This document shows positions 17,003 to 25,693 of a DNA stretch of 45,211 nt, in pieces. The notes under the pieces are model-generated. The model was given only the letters and a program-made list of their open reading frames with translations, searched no databases and was not told the DNA's origin. The first letter of the stretch is position 1. Each line of letters begins with the position of its first letter. The position numbers and the translations under genes are program-made. Source of the stretch: Candidatus Puniceispirillum sp. (GTDB taxonomy: Bacteria; Electryoneota; RPQS01; DYHQ01); assembly GCA_020724065.1 (NCBI GenBank), contig DYHQ01000005.1:1-45211 (forward strand), in the 5' to 3' direction.

Positions 17003-17971
17003 ATGAAATGGGCAGCGCCGCCGGTTCTTGGTATTGTTTGGTTGAGCTGCACCATTGAAGAGTCCCCTGAACTCCAGACAGGCAGCATCGAAGTGCGTCT
17101 CTTCGATTCGAGCGGCACAGAAATTTACAATGCCGAAATCTATGTTGACAGCGTGGTGAAGGGGCAACTAACGCCGGCAGTTCTCAGTGGCGTTGCGGTT
17201 GGCCAACGACAGCTTCGCGTCTGGAAGTCGGGTTATTATCCAGTTGACACTCTGGTGGAGGTCCTCCAGTTCGACACGATTCAAGTTTCTCTCGACACAA
17301 AGATCTCGCCGACCGGCGCGATTGAACTTCTGGATGCACCGGCGGGAGTAACTCTCCTGCTGAACGGAGAAGCGAACGGCCAAACGCCCCCTCCGGTCTT
17401 TCCAACAATCGGGATAGGCAGTTATCGGCTGTCGGCGTATCTGCCAGACCATGCAACCGACTTGCCCGCTCTGTGGCGAGAGCAGGTTACTTGGGCGGAT
17501 ACACTGCATATTGCAGTTCATTTTACTGAGGCTACGACGGGAAATCAGACAGGCAGTTTGACAATTCCATTTTCGCTCCCGAGTGACTGGAATCGCGATT
17601 ATGCAATCGAGGACTGGCGCGGCCATGTGGTGCTCCTCAATTTCTGGTTCATTGATTGCCCGAATTGTATTTTGGAGTTTCCCTATTTGCAGCAAGTCTA
17701 TCAGGAATCGGGCGGTGATGGAGGCTTTCAGATTCTGGCAGTGAATCCGTATGACGCAATGGAAGACATTCGCCAGTTCCGCACCGAGAGTGGATTGACC
17801 TTTCCGTTCCTGAGTGATGGTGAACATGCTGTCAGTCAGACCGATTATAATGTCGGAATATATCCCACAAATCTGCTGGTAGACAAACGAGGAGTCATTC
17901 GCTACCGAGTCGGGCGAGTCACCTATGACGAGCTTCGGGCTTGGGTGGATGTGCTTCTGGCGGAGCAGTGA
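17003..17971 (+). CDS. PEGA-like repeat plus TlpA thioredoxin-fold protein, possible lipoprotein
   Basis: 322 aa. MKWAAPPVLGIVWLSCTIEE is a signal peptide; the cysteine at position 16 could be lipid-modified, although Trp at -3 departs from the usual lipobox. Two PEGA-like beta modules follow at about 30-95 (IEVRLFDSSGTEIYNAEIYV, LRVWKSGYYPVDT) and 95-155 (TGAIELLDAPAGVTLLLNGE). The C-terminal ~150 residues are a TlpA/AhpC-like thioredoxin domain with active site CPNC (C219-C222) in FWFIDCPNCILEF and the cis-proline region GIYPTNLLVDKRG. Predicted envelope thiol-disulfide oxidoreductase. The CPNC dipeptide differs from the more usual CPPC or CxPC. The longer frame from 16874 overlaps the Nudix gene and was rejected. 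Confidence 0.8.
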   Translation: MKWAAPPVLGIVWLSCTIEESPELQTGSIEVRLFDSSGTEIYNAEIYVDSVVKGQLTPAVLSGVAVGQRQLRVWKSGYYPVDTLVEVLQFDTIQVSLDTKISPTGAIELLDAPAGVTLLLNGEANGQTPPPVFPTIGIGSYRLSAYLPDHATDLPALWREQVTWADTLHIAVHFTEATTGNQTGSLTIPFSLPSDWNRDYAIEDWRGHVVLLNFWFIDCPNCILEFPYLQQVYQESGGDGGFQILAVNPYDAMEDIRQFRTESGLTFPFLSDGEHAVSQTDYNVGIYPTNLLVDKRGVIRYRVGRVTYDELRAWVDVLLAEQ

Positions 17972-17992
17972 TAGAAGAGATTGAAGGAGTTG

Positions 17993-18730
17993 ATGGTGAG
18001 CATACGCATATTTTTCTTGGCGGCTCTTTGTCTCATTTGGGTGGCGAGCGGAAGCGCCCAGACATTTTCTTTTACGGCGGATACTGTCGCTCGATATGGA
18101 GAGGCGGGGGAGCTTGTTGTGTTCCATGCTATGTTCGAGAATCTATTGGACGACACTCAGTCCATTCATTTCCATGTGGATGCCTATGACTTTCCGGATA
18201 CGAACTGGACGATTGGCATCTGCAACCAAGCCGGCTGTTTCCCACCGGGTATCACTGATGTGGACTACACCTATGAGGCGCGTGCACGAGATACCCTCGT
18301 TTCCTTTGATGTTCGCATGACGGAAGTCGGAGATTCCGGACATTTCAGCACAACTTTGACTGCGGCTGTCGATCCTGAAAATCCCCAGACGATTCACTTC
18401 ACGATTTACAAAGGATCCGATGTCGTGTTGCATCAGCGGGCGATTCCCGAGGCAAGCGGTTTCGTAACTTCCTATCCGAATCCGTTCAATAATGAGACGA
18501 CATTGGAATTCTCCATGGCACGCTCTGAGGCGACAGACCTGGTCATCTACGACTTACTTGGGCGAGAAGTCGTGAGAATAGTCGATGGTGAGCGCTTGAA
18601 TCCGGGGGTCCACCGGCTTCAATGGTCCGGGACGAATCGCGACGGGATTTCTCTGCCTTCGGGAGTCTATTTCGTCGGCCTAAGACACCGAGATGAACTC
18701 AGAACTCATCGGCTATATCTTCTTCGGTAA
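17993..18730 (+). CDS. Secreted protein with type IX (Por) C-terminal sorting-type domain
   Basis: 245 aa. Signal peptide MVSIRIFFLAALCLIWVASG followed by SAQ; then an Ig-like beta domain to about residue 150 with a Cys-x4-Cys pair (C77, C82 in WTIGICNQAGCFPPG). From Tyr161 the sequence YPNPFNNETTLEFSM, VIYDLLGREVVRIVDG, HRLQWSGTNRDG and LPSGVYFVGLRH is the FlgD-like/T9SS type A sorting domain that directs export across the outer membrane. ATG 17993 sits 3 bases after AAGGAG; GTG 17996 is also possible. The gene lies between two thioredoxin-fold genes, so its disulfide may be their substrate (inference). Confidence 0.85.
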   Translation: MVSIRIFFLAALCLIWVASGSAQTFSFTADTVARYGEAGELVVFHAMFENLLDDTQSIHFHVDAYDFPDTNWTIGICNQAGCFPPGITDVDYTYEARARDTLVSFDVRMTEVGDSGHFSTTLTAAVDPENPQTIHFTIYKGSDVVLHQRAIPEASGFVTSYPNPFNNETTLEFSMARSEATDLVIYDLLGREVVRIVDGERLNPGVHRLQWSGTNRDGISLPSGVYFVGLRHRDELRTHRLYLLR

Positions 18731-18741
18731 AATGAGGTTTC

Positions 18742-19263
18742 ATGATGAGAATGGCGCAGCGATTTTTGGCATGGTTTTTCGTCGCTCTTGCTGCATTTGC
18801 TATTACAAGTCTCTCGCGCGCGCTCTTTGCTGTCCCGGCTGATTGGACTCTGAAAGACTTAGACGGAGGCCGCTTCACTCTCTCGGAAAATCTGGGCGGA
18901 TGGCCAACGATAATTCTTTTTTGGGCGACATGGTGCCGTCCCTGCAAGCAGGAAATGAAAGACTACAAGAGCATCTTTGAAAGCTATCAAGAGAAGGGCG
19001 TGAAGGTCTTGGCCATCTCGGAGGACAACTCCAAGACCCAGAGCCAGATTAAGCCGTTCATTCAAAACAATGGCTATAATTTCACGGTACTCCTTGATCC
19101 GACCGGTGAGGTTCTGAGAAGCTACGGCGGGGAGTCCATTCCTTTCACCATTGTGCTCGATTCTGTGGGTACAGTTCAAAAGACCTATCGAGGCAAGATT
19201 CAGAGGATAGATGACCTGAGCAAGCTCCTTGAAAAGTTACTTGTGGAATCGGTGGGTGAGTAG
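18742..19263 (+). CDS. TlpA-like thioredoxin-fold protein, envelope
   Basis: 173 aa. N-terminal hydrophobic segment MMRMAQRFLAWFFVALAAFA acts as a signal or anchor. The thioredoxin fold has active site WCRPC (C65, C68) in ILFWATWCRPCKQEM, LAISEDN, and the cis-proline SIPFTIVLDSVG. It probably reduces or maintains disulfides in the envelope, as TlpA/ResA proteins do. The start is ATG 18742 or 18745. Its last 35 bases overlap the longest frame of the barrel gene, so the two are likely coexpressed. Confidence 0.9.
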   Translation: MMRMAQRFLAWFFVALAAFAITSLSRALFAVPADWTLKDLDGGRFTLSENLGGWPTIILFWATWCRPCKQEMKDYKSIFESYQEKGVKVLAISEDNSKTQSQIKPFIQNNGYNFTVLLDPTGEVLRSYGGESIPFTIVLDSVGTVQKTYRGKIQRIDDLSKLLEKLLVESVGE

Positions 19264-20770
19264 CTGCTTTGTTCTTGTTGTTGCCTGCCTGGCCTGCGGC
19301 GTGACACTGGCGCCATTGAGTGCTCAGGAGATTCGGGTGGGCGGATCAAACTTGCTGCGCCTTGACGAAGGCTATGAGGTGAACCCCCTCAAGCATGCAC
19401 AGTTTCCCGACAACCGCGTTTATCGCAGTTTCTTTGAAAATCGTCTGCGCTTGAACATTGCCTATGGCAATTGGACTTTGGGAGGGCGATTCCTGCATTT
19501 CCGTCCTTCCGAAATAGACAAGCGTTTCTTTGCCGTTGAGAGTGAAACCGGGCTTGACAAGCGCTATTTCGATGCCAAGCTCCGTCCTTTGGCAATTCGT
19601 GTTGGCCACTTCGCCGAGGTTTTTGATCATGGTCTCACGCTTGGTCTGTTTGAAGACCGTGAACTCTTCTTCGATAGCGAGCTGGATGGAGTGCGTTTGT
19701 CGTTTGCACGGGGACCCGTTTCGCTCACGGCACTCAAAGGGCGCTCTCGTGCACGTGAGGGATTTCTGGTTGAGGAGGAGGGAGTCACAGGCGCCCATGC
19801 TGAAGTCGTTCCGCTCGCCGGATGGAAAGTGGGGGCAAGTTTCGTCCATCTTGATTCAAGCGGATACCCCGAAGCCCGTCTCCCCGCCGTGAGCGGTTTG
19901 GGGACGATCGGGCCTTTGCAGTTCGGGGGAGAATTCGCGTGGAAAGAGACAGACCTCGGAGTCTCGAAGACTCATGGTCAAGCCTGCTATTTAGAGGTTA
20001 TGGCGACTTCAGGCCAGTACAACTTGCTCATAAATTATAAGGATTATGACTATCGCGGCTGGACCCCGTTCCAGAATCCGCCACTCGTCAGTCGCGAGTT
20101 AGGGCCGCGGCTTCTTCAAAATCGCGAACCTCATGTCTTTTATCCTGAGGATGATGTCGGCTATCAGATTGAACTTCGCGGTGTCGTATTGAAAGAGGTC
20201 TCCGTTCTGGCTCACTTCAATCATTCGAGCCAACATGCCGATGGCCAGAAGGGAATTGCCCTGCCGACATTGCAGGAGCGCGACTGGCCCTATTGGGAGT
20301 TCTTCACGACCGTCGAGAATACCTGGCCGTCCGGATGGAGCCTGGAATGGGAGGGAGGGGTCAATGAAGAAGCCCAGACACAGTTCTGGTACAAGAAGGC
20401 GTGGATGGCCGCCAATGTCGGTGCCCCTATGGGTCAAATGGGTCGCATTCAGTTCGGGGGAGAAGCACTGAGAGTCCGCGATCAACGGAGAGACGAGGAA
20501 TTCGTGGATGAACTGGCGACTCTTGGCTGGGAGGATGGCAAGAGCTTGTCTGTCGAACTGCAATCGCAATGGACGGATGACGAAGCCCTGCGCGAGAGGG
20601 AGGGTGGTTTCTGGCCTTCGGCGGAGATCGCCTATTCGTTCGGGGAGGAACGTCATCGTGCAACTCTCTTTTGGGGCCGCGAGCGTGGAGGCCTGCGGTG
20701 TTCCAACGGATTCTGTCGGCGAGTGCAGCCGTTTGAAGGATTCCGTTTCACTCTCGAGAGTTCGCTGTGA
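19229..20770 (+). CDS. Predicted outer-membrane beta-barrel protein (DUF6029-like)
   Basis: About 513 aa. The start is uncertain: TTG 19229, TTG 19241 and GTG 19256 all give a signal peptide (SSCFVLVVACLACGVTLAPL, then SAQ). After it come alternating beta strands with aromatic ends: YGNWTLGGRFLHF, RVGHFAEVFDHGLTLGLFEDRELFFDSELDGVRLSF and repeated strands ending in GFRFTLESSL, a typical C-terminal beta signal (final hydrophobic Leu). The block 'RVGHFAEVFDHGL.LGLFEDREL' recalls Bacteroidetes DUF6029 proteins. Function is unknown; a porin-like or secretion role is possible. The stop overlaps the selA start by 4 bases. The call is by pattern, not by a catalytic motif. Confidence 0.72.
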   Translation: MKSYLWNRWVSSCFVLVVACLACGVTLAPLSAQEIRVGGSNLLRLDEGYEVNPLKHAQFPDNRVYRSFFENRLRLNIAYGNWTLGGRFLHFRPSEIDKRFFAVESETGLDKRYFDAKLRPLAIRVGHFAEVFDHGLTLGLFEDRELFFDSELDGVRLSFARGPVSLTALKGRSRAREGFLVEEEGVTGAHAEVVPLAGWKVGASFVHLDSSGYPEARLPAVSGLGTIGPLQFGGEFAWKETDLGVSKTHGQACYLEVMATSGQYNLLINYKDYDYRGWTPFQNPPLVSRELGPRLLQNREPHVFYPEDDVGYQIELRGVVLKEVSVLAHFNHSSQHADGQKGIALPTLQERDWPYWEFFTTVENTWPSGWSLEWEGGVNEEAQTQFWYKKAWMAANVGAPMGQMGRIQFGGEALRVRDQRRDEEFVDELATLGWEDGKSLSVELQSQWTDDEALREREGGFWPSAEIAYSFGEERHRATLFWGRERGGLRCSNGFCRRVQPFEGFRFTLESSL

Positions 20771-22182
20771 AGGAGGCTCGCGTTCACATAGACCCACGGC
20801 GCCTGCTGCCATCGGTGGATGTTGTTCTGCAAGAGGACGCTCTTCATGTGTTACGCGGGACAATCTCCTCTGACTTCCTAACGGCAGCGGTGCGTCGTGC
20901 TCTCGAGACTGAGAGAGCGCGAGTCGCCGATGGGCGACCTGTGCCCGATGCCAAGAAGCTGGCCGAAATGGCTGCGACTGAAGTTCGGTCTTGGTTTGAG
21001 AGCCGTCTGCAATCGGTTATCAACGGGACAGGAATCATCCTTCACACAGGTCTTGGTCGAGCTCCGTTAGCCCCAGAGGCACAGGAGGCTGTCCATCGCG
21101 TCGCTCAAGGATACTGCAATCTGGAAATTGATTTGCAGAGCGGACGGCGAGGGGAACGGCAAGAGATTCTCCTGGACGATTTCCAGTCCCTGCTGGGCGT
21201 TGAAGCTGCACTTGTTGTGAATAACAACGCCGCGGGTGTTTTTCTGGTCTTGAGTGTGTTAGCGGCAAAGAGGGAGGTTATCGTCTCTCGCGGTCAGCTT
21301 ATCGAGATTGGAGGGAGCTTCCGTCTTCCCGAAATTATGAACCGGTCCGGCGCAAAGCTCGTTGAAGTCGGAACAACAAATAAGACACGCTTGACGGACT
21401 ATGCCAACGCCATCACCTCAAAGACAGCTTTGATTCTGCGAGCCTATCCTTCCAACTACAAGATTGAAGGTTTTGCAGAGACGGTTCCTCTTGAAGATCT
21501 GGTGACACTTGGACGATCGCATGAGATTCCGGTCGTGGACGATTTGGGAGGTGGCCTTCTCTGGTCGTGGCAGCACCTTGGACTTCCGGAAGAACCTACC
21601 GTCGCTCAGAGTCTTGGAGCGGGGGCGGATCTTGTTCTTTTTTCGGGAGACAAGACGCTGGGTGGCCCACAAGCGGGTATCATCGTCGGCAAAGAGGCTT
21701 TGATCGCGCGATTGAAGCGCCACCCTTTGCTTCGAGTGCTTCGCCCGGACAAACTTCAAATTGCCGCGCTGTCAGCTACGCTGAAGCTTTTTTACGACCG
21801 TGAACACCTCCCGGAGCGGCTGCCGACTTTTGAGCGTCTTGCAGAGCCGGTTGAAAGTGTTCGGAAGCGGGCGGATGACCTTCGGCGAAGGCTGGAGAGT
21901 CGCGCAGATTGGGCGGCTCTGGAAGTCGTGGACACCAAGGCTCAGACCGGTTCCGGCACTTTGCCAGCCGAAGAACTTCCGAGCGCGGGTCTGGCGGTTT
22001 TTCCACGAGGTTGGCGTCCCCATGCCTGGGCACGACAGTTGCGCTTGAGTCGTCCCGCCGTGCTCGGAACACTGCGAGACGAGCGCTTCGTTCTTGATTT
22101 CAGGACAATCTTCCCGTGGCAGGCCGATGCTTTGGCGTCGGTGATTGAGAAAGCATTGACGAAAGAGCGCCATGAAGCGTAG
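20767..22182 (+). CDS. selA: L-seryl-tRNA(Sec) selenium transferase
   Basis: 471 aa PLP enzyme that converts seryl-tRNA(Sec) to selenocysteyl-tRNA(Sec) using selenophosphate. Signatures: N-terminal DPRRLLPSVDVVLQ, VINGTGIILHTGLGRAPLA, SGRRGERQEI, ALVVNNNAAGVFLVL, the PLP contact VVDDLGGGLLW and the Schiff-base Lys296 in FSGDKTLGGPQAGIIVGK. Length and motifs are those of bacterial SelA. The start GTG 20767 overlaps the barrel gene stop (GTGA). With selB 4.4 kb downstream it shows that the organism encodes selenocysteine insertion. selD (selenophosphate synthetase) and selC (tRNA-Sec) were not found in the window. Confidence 0.96.
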   Translation: MKEARVHIDPRRLLPSVDVVLQEDALHVLRGTISSDFLTAAVRRALETERARVADGRPVPDAKKLAEMAATEVRSWFESRLQSVINGTGIILHTGLGRAPLAPEAQEAVHRVAQGYCNLEIDLQSGRRGERQEILLDDFQSLLGVEAALVVNNNAAGVFLVLSVLAAKREVIVSRGQLIEIGGSFRLPEIMNRSGAKLVEVGTTNKTRLTDYANAITSKTALILRAYPSNYKIEGFAETVPLEDLVTLGRSHEIPVVDDLGGGLLWSWQHLGLPEEPTVAQSLGAGADLVLFSGDKTLGGPQAGIIVGKEALIARLKRHPLLRVLRPDKLQIAALSATLKLFYDREHLPERLPTFERLAEPVESVRKRADDLRRRLESRADWAALEVVDTKAQTGSGTLPAEELPSAGLAVFPRGWRPHAWARQLRLSRPAVLGTLRDERFVLDFRTIFPWQADALASVIEKALTKERHEA

Positions 22183-24292: not shown

Positions 24293-25693
24293 ATGGCGCC
24301 ACGATCTCACTCTTTCCGTTCGCATCCGCGTCCCTATCGAGCCGCGGCCGACATGATTTTGCGGCTCCTGCGGATTTTTGTTCCTTTGGCAATCGTCGGA
24401 GCGATTTTCTACCTACTTATTGATCGCCCGCAGACGGTCACCGGCCGACTTCGCGTAACGAGCGATGTGAAAGGAGCTGAAGTCCTCCTGGACGGTATGC
24501 AGGTCGGAGTGGTGACGGATACGACCCTCTCACGAGTCGTCGCCGGGCGCAGGTCCGTAGCGGTTCGCAAATCAGGCTATCTTGCGGAGCCGGAGGTCGT
24601 CTTTATTGATGTGAAACAAGACACTCTAACGGTCGTGACCTTTCGTCTGATAGAGCGTGCAGCCGCTTCGCGGGATAGCGATTCCATCGGATTTCTGGAA
24701 TCTCTGCGTGAAGATATTCCAGTTGACTGGGAGGAGATGGCTCCTCCATCGCTTTCATCGGACGATGCCGCACGCCATCGTCCGGATGAGTCCGAGGAAG
24801 AATTCGCAGCGACCGAGGAGATGATTGAGCAAGACACGGCTCTTCCGGTGTTTGCGGCGGAGCAGACTCCCGTGCGCGCACAAGAAGGCATTACGGGAGC
24901 CTCGATTGTCGTTTCATCGAATCCACCGGGAGCGGAGATTATTATCAACGGCGATTCGACAGGTCATCAGACCAACTACACATTCCATGATCTCCTGCGC
25001 GGAACCTACTTCGTCGCTGCGCGTAAGCAGGGCTATATCTCGAAACCCGATATTGTGCAGATTGACCTATCTCGTGATTATCAAAATGAATTGGTTGCCT
25101 TCTCGCTCACCCTGGATGCGTCGCTTCCCTCGCCACAACTGACGGTATCTACGGAACCCATCGAAGGGGGCATTCGAGTGGCGGGCAAGCCCGTGGGAAA
25201 AGGGCGCGTTACCCTTGATGTGGCTCTCGGAAAATCCCTCGTGGAGTTTGAGGAAGTCATCGGGTACCGGACACCTGAATCGCAGCTTGTGGAACTTACT
25301 CCCGAAACGACTTCAATGGAGATCATTGGGCGATACGAGCGCCTTGAAGGAAAGGCCTTTCTTGCGGTGATGCCGGCACGGACAAGAACGATTAAGGGAG
25401 AGGAACTACGCGTTTGGGTGGATAATGAGTTGTTCGTTGACAAGCTCGCGCAGAAATTGGACGGGTTCTTGATTCATAAACTTGTGGCAGGGAAACGCTT
25501 GGTCCAAGTTGAATATCAGGGTATGGTACAGAATGTCCATGTGGATCTCTTGGACGATGAGGTTTCCACAGTCACTTTTGCGATTGAGAGTTTTCTCAGC
25601 AAGAAGAGCCTGCGTCTCCGGATTGAGCCCGTGACGAGCCTCAAGGACTGGCAAAAGCGCACGCGAAAATTGGCGATCGTGGAACAGAAGTAA
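24293..25693 (+). CDS. Membrane-anchored protein with PEGA repeats
   Basis: 466 aa. A basic N-terminus, then one membrane helix at about residues 25-43 (FVPLAIVGAIFYLLI). Two PEGA domains are clear: residues ~50-118 (RLRVTSDVKGAEVLLDGMQV, VAVRKSGYLAEP) and ~203-275 (IVVSSNPPGAEIIINGDSTG, VAARKQGYISKP), with an acidic, Pro/Ser-rich linker between. A third, degenerate one spans about 282-350 (LTVSTEPIEGGIRVAGK). The C-terminal ~115 residues show no familiar domain. ATG 24293 is used; ATG 24353 is an alternative that would remove the basic N-terminus. The domains probably face the periplasm. Molecular role unknown. Confidence 0.85.
   Translation: MAPRSHSFRSHPRPYRAAADMILRLLRIFVPLAIVGAIFYLLIDRPQTVTGRLRVTSDVKGAEVLLDGMQVGVVTDTTLSRVVAGRRSVAVRKSGYLAEPEVVFIDVKQDTLTVVTFRLIERAAASRDSDSIGFLESLREDIPVDWEEMAPPSLSSDDAARHRPDESEEEFAATEEMIEQDTALPVFAAEQTPVRAQEGITGASIVVSSNPPGAEIIINGDSTGHQTNYTFHDLLRGTYFVAARKQGYISKPDIVQIDLSRDYQNELVAFSLTLDASLPSPQLTVSTEPIEGGIRVAGKPVGKGRVTLDVALGKSLVEFEEVIGYRTPESQLVELTPETTSMEIIGRYERLEGKAFLAVMPARTRTIKGEELRVWVDNELFVDKLAQKLDGFLIHKLVAGKRLVQVEYQGMVQNVHVDLLDDEVSTVTFAIESFLSKKSLRLRIEPVTSLKDWQKRTRKLAIVEQK

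Follow-up and report, generated by a model that had tools for sequence, protein, structure and literature searches.

A conserved gene set of two thioredoxins, a PorA-like protein and a DUF6029 barrel as a candidate type IX secretion-linked thiol-disulfide module of the bacterial outer envelope

The DNA analysed here (the window, 45,211 nt of contig DYHQ01000005.1 of Candidatus Puniceispirillum sp., assembly GCA_020724065.1, placed by GTDB in Electryoneota) carries a set of four genes for exported proteins, arranged head to tail on the plus strand (17003-20770): a PEGA-thioredoxin protein (gene 1), a PorA-like protein (gene 2), a second thioredoxin of TlpA/ResA type (gene 3) and an outer-membrane β-barrel of the DUF6029 family (gene 4). 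The linkage of this gene set is well supported, and we hold it to be slightly more probable than even that the cluster represents a conserved thiol-disulfide module of the outer envelope linked to the type IX secretion system (T9SS), whose functions would include maturation or redox control of surface cysteines and reporting through the PorA-like protein. An earlier note on this DNA had proposed that the two thioredoxins set the redox state of the secreted cysteine pair of gene 2, with the barrel as their outer-membrane partner. The four reading frames, the export of their products, the CPNC, Cys77-x4-Cys82 and WCRPC motifs, the sorting tail and the barrel were all confirmed as it had described them, the domains with Pfam and NCBIfam. 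Its picture was incomplete, lacking both the invariant C487-x4-C492 pair of the barrel itself and the kinship of gene 2 with PorA; with these two findings, the set is most likely to be understood as an envelope thiol module tied to the T9SS, and no longer as a matter of one secreted cysteine pair.

Conservation of the gene order was followed in 61 genomes (the window genome and 60 relatives), of which 36 contain the barrel (E 1e-3) and 27 the gene 2 domain (E 0.1). The neighbourhoods covered were those of all barrel genomes except G053, which has a weak match, and the counts refer to stop-to-stop frames. In 33 of the 35 loci with ≥ 600 bp of upstream sequence, a TlpA gene stops no more than 400 bp before the barrel domain, the exceptions being L085 (TlpA 3.2 kb away) and L086 (no TlpA). 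The same holds for 56 of 60 such loci in a second, overlapping set of 64, collected with the pattern [ED]RGG[LIM][KRV]C[ST][SNG]G, which itself selects for cysteine conservation; these 64 loci come from Electryonea, LCP-89, Tariuqbacter, Hatepunaea, KSB1, Calditrichaeota-labelled genomes, Ignavibacteria, Eisenbacteria, Zixibacteria, Neomarinimicrobiota and Coatesbacteria. The complete order PEGA-thioredoxin, gene 2, TlpA, barrel, the conservation of which the earlier note had proposed as a check, is retained, for example, in L069, L075, L078, L079 and L084. Gene 2 located away from the barrel is often still paired with a PEGA-thioredoxin gene (L105, L106, L107, L112), and a thioredoxin-fold domain lies ≤ 1.6 kb upstream in 18 of the 27 gene 2-domain proteins with upstream room, while the flanking DNA searched, 366.6 kb in all, held no thioredoxin match more than 4 kb away from a barrel or Cys-x4-Cys gene. 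There is thus no mere scatter of homologues, even if several genomes have the Cys-x4-Cys gene at a distance from the barrel. A chance neighbourhood was rejected, because the set is kept across families and phyla.

The counterpart in Bacteroidota, the phylum of L142, was examined in a sample of 198 genomes, 56 of which carry DUF6029 by Pfam profile, that is, chosen regardless of cysteines; 30 DUF6029 loci were analysed, with wider regions for 20 of the 56 genomes as well as further regions. TlpA adjoins DUF6029 in 25 of these 30 loci, on the same strand within ≤ 424 bp in 20 and on the opposite strand in five, so the barrel is the most constant neighbour of TlpA in both surveys, in keeping with the partnership suggested for it earlier. 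The usual layout consists of a divergent PorA-like gene, then TlpA, DUF6029 and Omp28 (L228, L229, L232, L233, L234, L236, L237; also L226, without an Omp28 match). At the same time, L284 and L286 show the window's order (PEGA-Omp28, PorA-like, TlpA, DUF6029) with the Omp28 fold replacing the ResA fold, and PEGA-Omp28 stands in for PEGA-thioredoxin in L284, L098 and L101. In two genomes, G226 and G262, the barrel has no TlpA neighbour (L201, L200) and TlpA is found instead beside the PorA-like gene (L296, L297). DUF6029 occurs in 26 of the 29 genomes with a PorA-like domain against 56 of 198 overall, but 13 of the 29 had seeded the profile, having themselves been found beside DUF6029; with these seeds removed, it occurs in 13 of 16 against 43 of 185 (P 3.9e-7, uncorrected for phylogeny). 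PorA was found in none of the eight genomes of the family of G109. The claim that the genes form a linked set was thus borne out by gene fusions and by an order kept in Electryoneota and also in Bacteroidota and Ignavibacteria, where a thioredoxin-fold lipoprotein of Omp28 type replaces the ResA-type one.

These fusions, each present in one or few genomes, together join thioredoxin to both cysteine-pair partners. PEGA-thioredoxin and the gene 2 domain form a single frame of 525-581 amino acids (aa) in L071, L072 and L073, which lacks a sorting tail but retains CxxC as well as C-x4-C; a 651-aa frame in L102 unites thioredoxin and barrel; and L104:7894-9189 combines a thioredoxin domain, with an in-frame TGA at its first active-site position (U-S-T-C), with a PorA-like domain and a sorting tail. 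It follows from the first and last of these kinds that thioredoxin and the gene 2 domain must share one membrane side. The L104 protein is probably a selenocysteine thioredoxin and a candidate secreted selenoprotein: its genome, G005, has a tRNA-Sec (56.9 bits against an Rfam cut-off of 47), and a hairpin 3' of the TGA has a z of -2.29, 5 of 200 shuffles folding equally well. A second ResA-like frame with an active-site TGA (WUGPC) was observed on the minus strand at L102:4449-5357, a few genes from the thioredoxin-barrel fusion. Moreover, SelA lies immediately 3' of the barrel in many Electryoneota loci, and several genomes have tRNA-Sec on the same contig, e.g., G001:C14, G002:C1, G005:C2 and G007:C101.

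The barrel of gene 4 is a DUF6029 member (83.9 bits against a Pfam cut-off of 27, E 1.3e-23) and carries RGGLRCSNGFCRRV close to its C-terminal end, where the C-x4-C pair supplies its sole invariant cysteines. Both cysteines are present in 35 of 35 barrels from the window genome and its relatives, and the C-x2-G-x-C motif recurs in 30 of 30 Bacteroidota loci, a sample picked by Pfam profile. In the AlphaFold model (mean pLDDT 94.3), C487 and C492 are placed on opposite short strands of a tight mini-hairpin between the last two barrel strands. A periplasmic C-terminus is the standard topology for such barrels, and the cysteine loop is accordingly predicted to be surface-exposed; the long loops of the model also come after odd-numbered strands. 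The nearest folds are the FimD/PapC ushers (Z 20.0 and 19.0; for 3ohn, Z 20.0 with a root-mean-square deviation (rmsd) of 4.2 over 372 aligned residues), with OccK porins at Z 18.0 and AlgE also among the matches.

The sorting tail of gene 2 is of type A (Por_Secre_tail PF18962, E 2.3e-6, 28.3 bits against 27; TIGR04183, 33.6 bits against 23), and its model shows an immunoglobulin (Ig)-like domain (pLDDT 74.2). C77 and C82 are invariant in nine of nine aligned gene 2-type sequences. A search with profile A5, built on the gene 2 domain including Bacteroidota members, ranked 6kjk, the N-terminal domain of P. gingivalis PorA (PorA-N), above every other PDB chain (E 0.067), and aligned the C-FGQ-C (C-x3-C) of PorA in register with the gene 2 pair; the Electryoneota-only profile gave PorA-N at E 0.17. 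The VIA structure comparison placed 6kjk at rank 1 (Z 11.8, rmsd 2.9, 115 of 134 residues aligned), tied with 8k2i, and Foldseek placed PorA-N at rank 15 (TMt 0.64). The Electryoneota gene 2 profile recovers the Bacteroidota members at E 1.9e-17 to 1.7e-4, and hhalign assigned the PorA stretch a probability of 64.9% against the mixed profile. A blind query of 395 genomes with 52 residues of PorA gave four weak matches that missed the threshold (E 0.03-0.09 per genome): a pair of PorA-like genes beside TlpA and DUF6029 (L282, L284), and two others that look like noise. By these profile and model comparisons, gene 2 appears to belong with PorA; its homology rests on intermediates, direct comparison with the Electryoneota sequences being weak.

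The gene 2 cysteine pair is present in 27 of 31 domains and is never half lost, the other four (the second repeat of L083, L113, L114 and the second gene of L101) having neither cysteine; L113 and L114 have no upstream thioredoxin gene, and the pair-less protein of L101 has a fused Omp28 domain. The pair is therefore conserved where the TlpA genes occur, as the earlier proposal had implied. Tandem PorA-like domains, two or three per protein, were observed in L105, L109, L083 and L295, and in Eisenbacteria an Omp28-like lipoprotein with TTWCGWC followed by five PorA-like repeats directly precedes the barrel (L181:4928-7660), the Omp28 match itself being weak (E 0.094).

As for the thioredoxins, gene 1 combines PEGA (E 1.6e-8) with an AhpC-TSA/ResA-like thioredoxin (E 1.1e-18), and gene 3, with its WCRPC, is ResA/TlpA-like (E 1.2e-25); their AhpC-TSA scores are 67.8 and 90.3 bits, respectively (Pfam cut-off 26). 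ResA is the best-matching NCBIfam subfamily for both, and the scores of genes 1 and 3 fall below the cut-offs for ResA (NF002854; 70.5 and 88.5 against 170), DsbE (TIGR00385; 37.6 and 40.5 against 123) and TlpA (NF047696; 33.2 and 39.4 against 230); gene 1 gave no Omp28 (PF11551) match at E up to 1. The N-terminus of gene 1 has a lipobox-like WLSC, and its counterparts in relatives show a clear L-x-G-C lipobox, so that, by the lipobox rule, the product is probably an outer-membrane lipoprotein. Thioredoxin-fold proteins of TlpA/ResA type act on the disulfides of specific clients, usually reductively and together with CcdA/DsbD. Two DsbD-type matches are present in the host genome (G000), and in L141 a thioredoxin lipoprotein and a 233-aa membrane protein, which we read as CcdA-like although it has no Pfam support, precede TlpA and the barrel. 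The host also encodes the T9SS, with SprA at 832.1 bits (G000:C167, with its neighbours in frame; cut-off 200), and the gene 2 sorting tail has 102 matches across the genome.

The simplest reading of the set is a dedicated maturation or redox control of two surface disulfides, those of the barrel and of the PorA-like protein; the constant features are TlpA with a cysteine-pair barrel and a thioredoxin-fold lipoprotein with a cysteine-pair PorA-like protein. The periplasmic TlpA (gene 3) would handle the disulfide of the DUF6029 barrel and would probably be recharged by a DsbD/CcdA protein encoded elsewhere in the genome, and the thioredoxin-fold outer-membrane lipoprotein (gene 1; Omp28-type in Bacteroidota) would act likewise on the Ig-domain cysteine pair of the PorA-like protein, which the T9SS would send to the surface. 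Barrel and PorA-like protein may in this way be matured, or kept in one redox state, so that the PorA-like protein could signal the state of the surface to a PorXY-type regulation of the T9SS. Such a signalling role is plausible by analogy, since in P. gingivalis the T9SS genes are under a PorXY-SigP control fed by PorA, and both T9SS genes and PorX-type proteins are present among the relatives: PglZ is present in 39 of the 61 genomes surveyed, and a protein with receiver and PglZ domains, i.e., of PorX type, is encoded at L281.

Several observations weigh against this reading. The case for redox exchange is entirely genomic, and the assignment of the barrel loop to the surface follows from standard topology. 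PglZ/PorX has no match in the window's own genome (88.7% complete), and a PorA-like gene lies on the same strand within 6.5 kb of the barrel in only 15 of the 36 Electryoneota-survey loci. The relation to PorA is weak when the PorA stretch is compared with the Electryoneota sequences alone (hhalign probability 0.85%, E 0.065), P. gingivalis PorA being represented in direct sequence comparison by the 52-residue stretch only. With a spacing anywhere from x3 to x11, the PorA-like pair looks more like a structural disulfide than like a redox centre, and it is retained in six of the eight proteins without an upstream thioredoxin gene. Covariation of Cys77/Cys82 with the TlpA genes, which the earlier note had proposed as a criterion, proved uninformative, the pair being nearly always present whether or not a thioredoxin is adjacent.

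The last of these points lead to the main rival of redox exchange, an explanation that we consider rather unlikely but more probable than the others: the cysteine pairs would be plain structural disulfides that lend rigidity to the Ig domain and the surface loop, the thioredoxins would serve general envelope housekeeping or other clients, and the genes would stand together only through shared expression. Besides the variable spacing and the retention of the pair without an upstream thioredoxin, this is consistent with the C-x4-C form, which differs from the CxxC of classical redox centres, and with the modelled position of C487 and C492, facing one another across a tight hairpin. The fusion of thioredoxin both with the PorA-like domain and with the barrel argues against it, as does an adjacency of thioredoxin and barrel that persists across several phyla while the outer neighbours change.

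Less probable again is a redox sensor acting across the outer membrane, in which reducing equivalents or the disulfide state would travel from TlpA by way of the barrel to cysteines on the surface. The PorA-like protein would then convert that state into PorXY-SigP control of T9SS genes. To our knowledge, no protein moves thiol reducing power across the outer membrane; the missing PorX match in the window genome and the varying PorA-like spacing also speak against such a sensor. In its favour, topology would place the barrel pair on the surface side, and a PorX-type protein with receiver and PglZ domains exists in the relatives. PorA acts upstream of PorXY-SigP via unknown mediators (PMC7712824) and binds the PorV-Sov complex (PMC8754138). 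A full relay, in which TlpA would set the barrel pair, the barrel and the thioredoxin-fold lipoprotein would set the PorA-like pair, and PorA would switch T9SS production via PorXY-SigP, is a shade more doubtful still; if true, it would explain how PorA on the surface reaches PorY, the kinase of the inner membrane, for which the mediator is unknown.

It is improbable that the PorA-like protein uses the DUF6029 barrel as its translocation pore or anchor, with TlpA keeping the cargo cysteines reduced until passage. The usher matches of the barrel point that way, as does FimH, the best match reported for PorA-N (PMC7712824), which is a FimD substrate. P. gingivalis PorA is, in addition, displayed on the surface independently of the Sov/T9SS machinery (PMC7712824), so that a 24-strand usher-like barrel could be its missing route; however, the OccK porins follow within about 2 Z units, so the usher match may be generic, and DUF6029 is also found without a nearby PorA-like gene. 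Least probable of all is a polysaccharide-export porin whose folding the thioredoxins merely aid, as would be allowed by the AlgE match and by the report that HHpred relates Wzi-type barrels encoded close to OPX genes to DUF6029 (PMC9603273). The recurring partners in the neighbourhoods examined are TlpA, Omp28 and PorA-like genes, no search having been aimed at polysaccharide-export genes.

The positions of the genes and cysteine pairs are collected in Table 1. Genes 1 and 2 are separated by 21 bases and genes 2 and 3 by 11 bases; the 35-base overlap of the longest gene 4 frame with gene 3 (19229-19263), remarked on earlier, is present and recurs at the same length in G001 (L069).

Table 1 Genes and cysteine pairs of the four-gene set in the window
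Feature	Position	Strand	Length	Evidence
Gene 1: PEGA and ResA/TlpA-type thioredoxin, CPNC	17003..17971	+	322 aa	Pfam, NCBIfam
Gene 2: PorA-like; signal peptide, Ig-like domain with C77-x4-C82, T9SS C-terminal sorting tail	17993..18730	+	245 aa	Pfam, NCBIfam, profiles, model
Cys77-x4-Cys82 codons of gene 2	18221..18238	+		sequence, alignment
Gene 3: exported TlpA/ResA-like thioredoxin, WCRPC	18742..19263	+	173 aa	Pfam, NCBIfam
Gene 4: DUF6029 (PF19494) outer-membrane β-barrel, ~24 strands in model	19229..20770 (alternative start 19241)	+		Pfam, AlphaFold
C487-x4-C492 of barrel, mini-hairpin between last two strands	20699..20716	+		sequence, alignment, AlphaFold

Directly 3' of the barrel lies SelA (20767-22182), which overlaps it by 4 bases. 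Many Electryoneota loci, but not all, share the flanking genes, namely Nudix on the upstream side and SelA and NfeD on the downstream side, and neither of the latter two was matched in the wider Bacteroidota regions examined; because of this uneven retention, the three genes are not regarded as parts of the module. A second PEGA protein, with two PEGA domains (24293-25693), is encoded a few genes 3' of the barrel, and close relatives have it as well. Additionally, a helix-hairpin-helix protein of ~700 aa follows the Omp28 gene at L142:10528-12636, and equally long frames take that place in several further Ignavibacteria loci.

Among known systems, the thioredoxins of genes 1 and 3 share with ResA, TlpA and CcmG (DsbE) the exported thioredoxin fold with WCxxC or CxxC, and the reductive role of those proteins needs CcdA/DsbD, DsbD-type proteins being present in the host. 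However, both genes remain below the curated cut-offs of all these subfamilies, whose known clients are cytochrome c or spore proteins and include no outer-membrane barrel. In working principle, the proposed module resembles DsbA/DsbC and LptD, where envelope thiol enzymes act on the disulfide of an outer-membrane barrel, but no relation of the DUF6029 barrel to LptD was seen, and here the enzyme gene adjoins the barrel gene, once fused to it, with the disulfide modelled in the last surface loop. Omp28 (PF11551), a thioredoxin-fold lipoprotein with CxxC beside TlpA-DUF6029 in Bacteroidota, is the likeness of gene 1, which matches AhpC-TSA/Redoxin instead.

The closest comparison is P. gingivalis PorA (PGN_0123/PG2172), a T9SS cargo of 246 residues (PMC7712824). 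Gene 2, with 245 aa, has the same composition of signal peptide, single Ig-like domain and T9SS tail, and its cysteine pair is in register, as C-x4-C against the C-x3-C of PorA. Their sequence identity is very low, the link running through intermediates, and the PorXY-SigP control role is known for P. gingivalis only. No adjacent TlpA or DUF6029 is reported for P. gingivalis PorA in the portions of the sources at hand; the next locus number, PG2173, is an Omp28 lipoprotein (PMC9722745), PG2174 is called uncharacterised in a vesicle proteome (PMC4335976), and the available part of PMC3946380 has nothing on PG2175. The TlpA linkage and the invariant cysteine pair of DUF6029 do not appear in the accessible part of the published account naming the family (PMC9603273), nor was a description of a TlpA-DUF6029-PorA-like-Omp28/thioredoxin module found in the open-licence literature, as far as it was available. 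That the set travels together across distant phyla suggests that bacteria have a system for handling thiols at their surface which has yet to be described. For such a system, the PorA-like protein, TlpA, DUF6029 and the Omp28/thioredoxin lipoprotein, kept from Electryoneota to Bacteroidota, offer concrete candidate proteins, and DUF6029, a family without an assigned function, gains a testable partner and an invariant cysteine pair.

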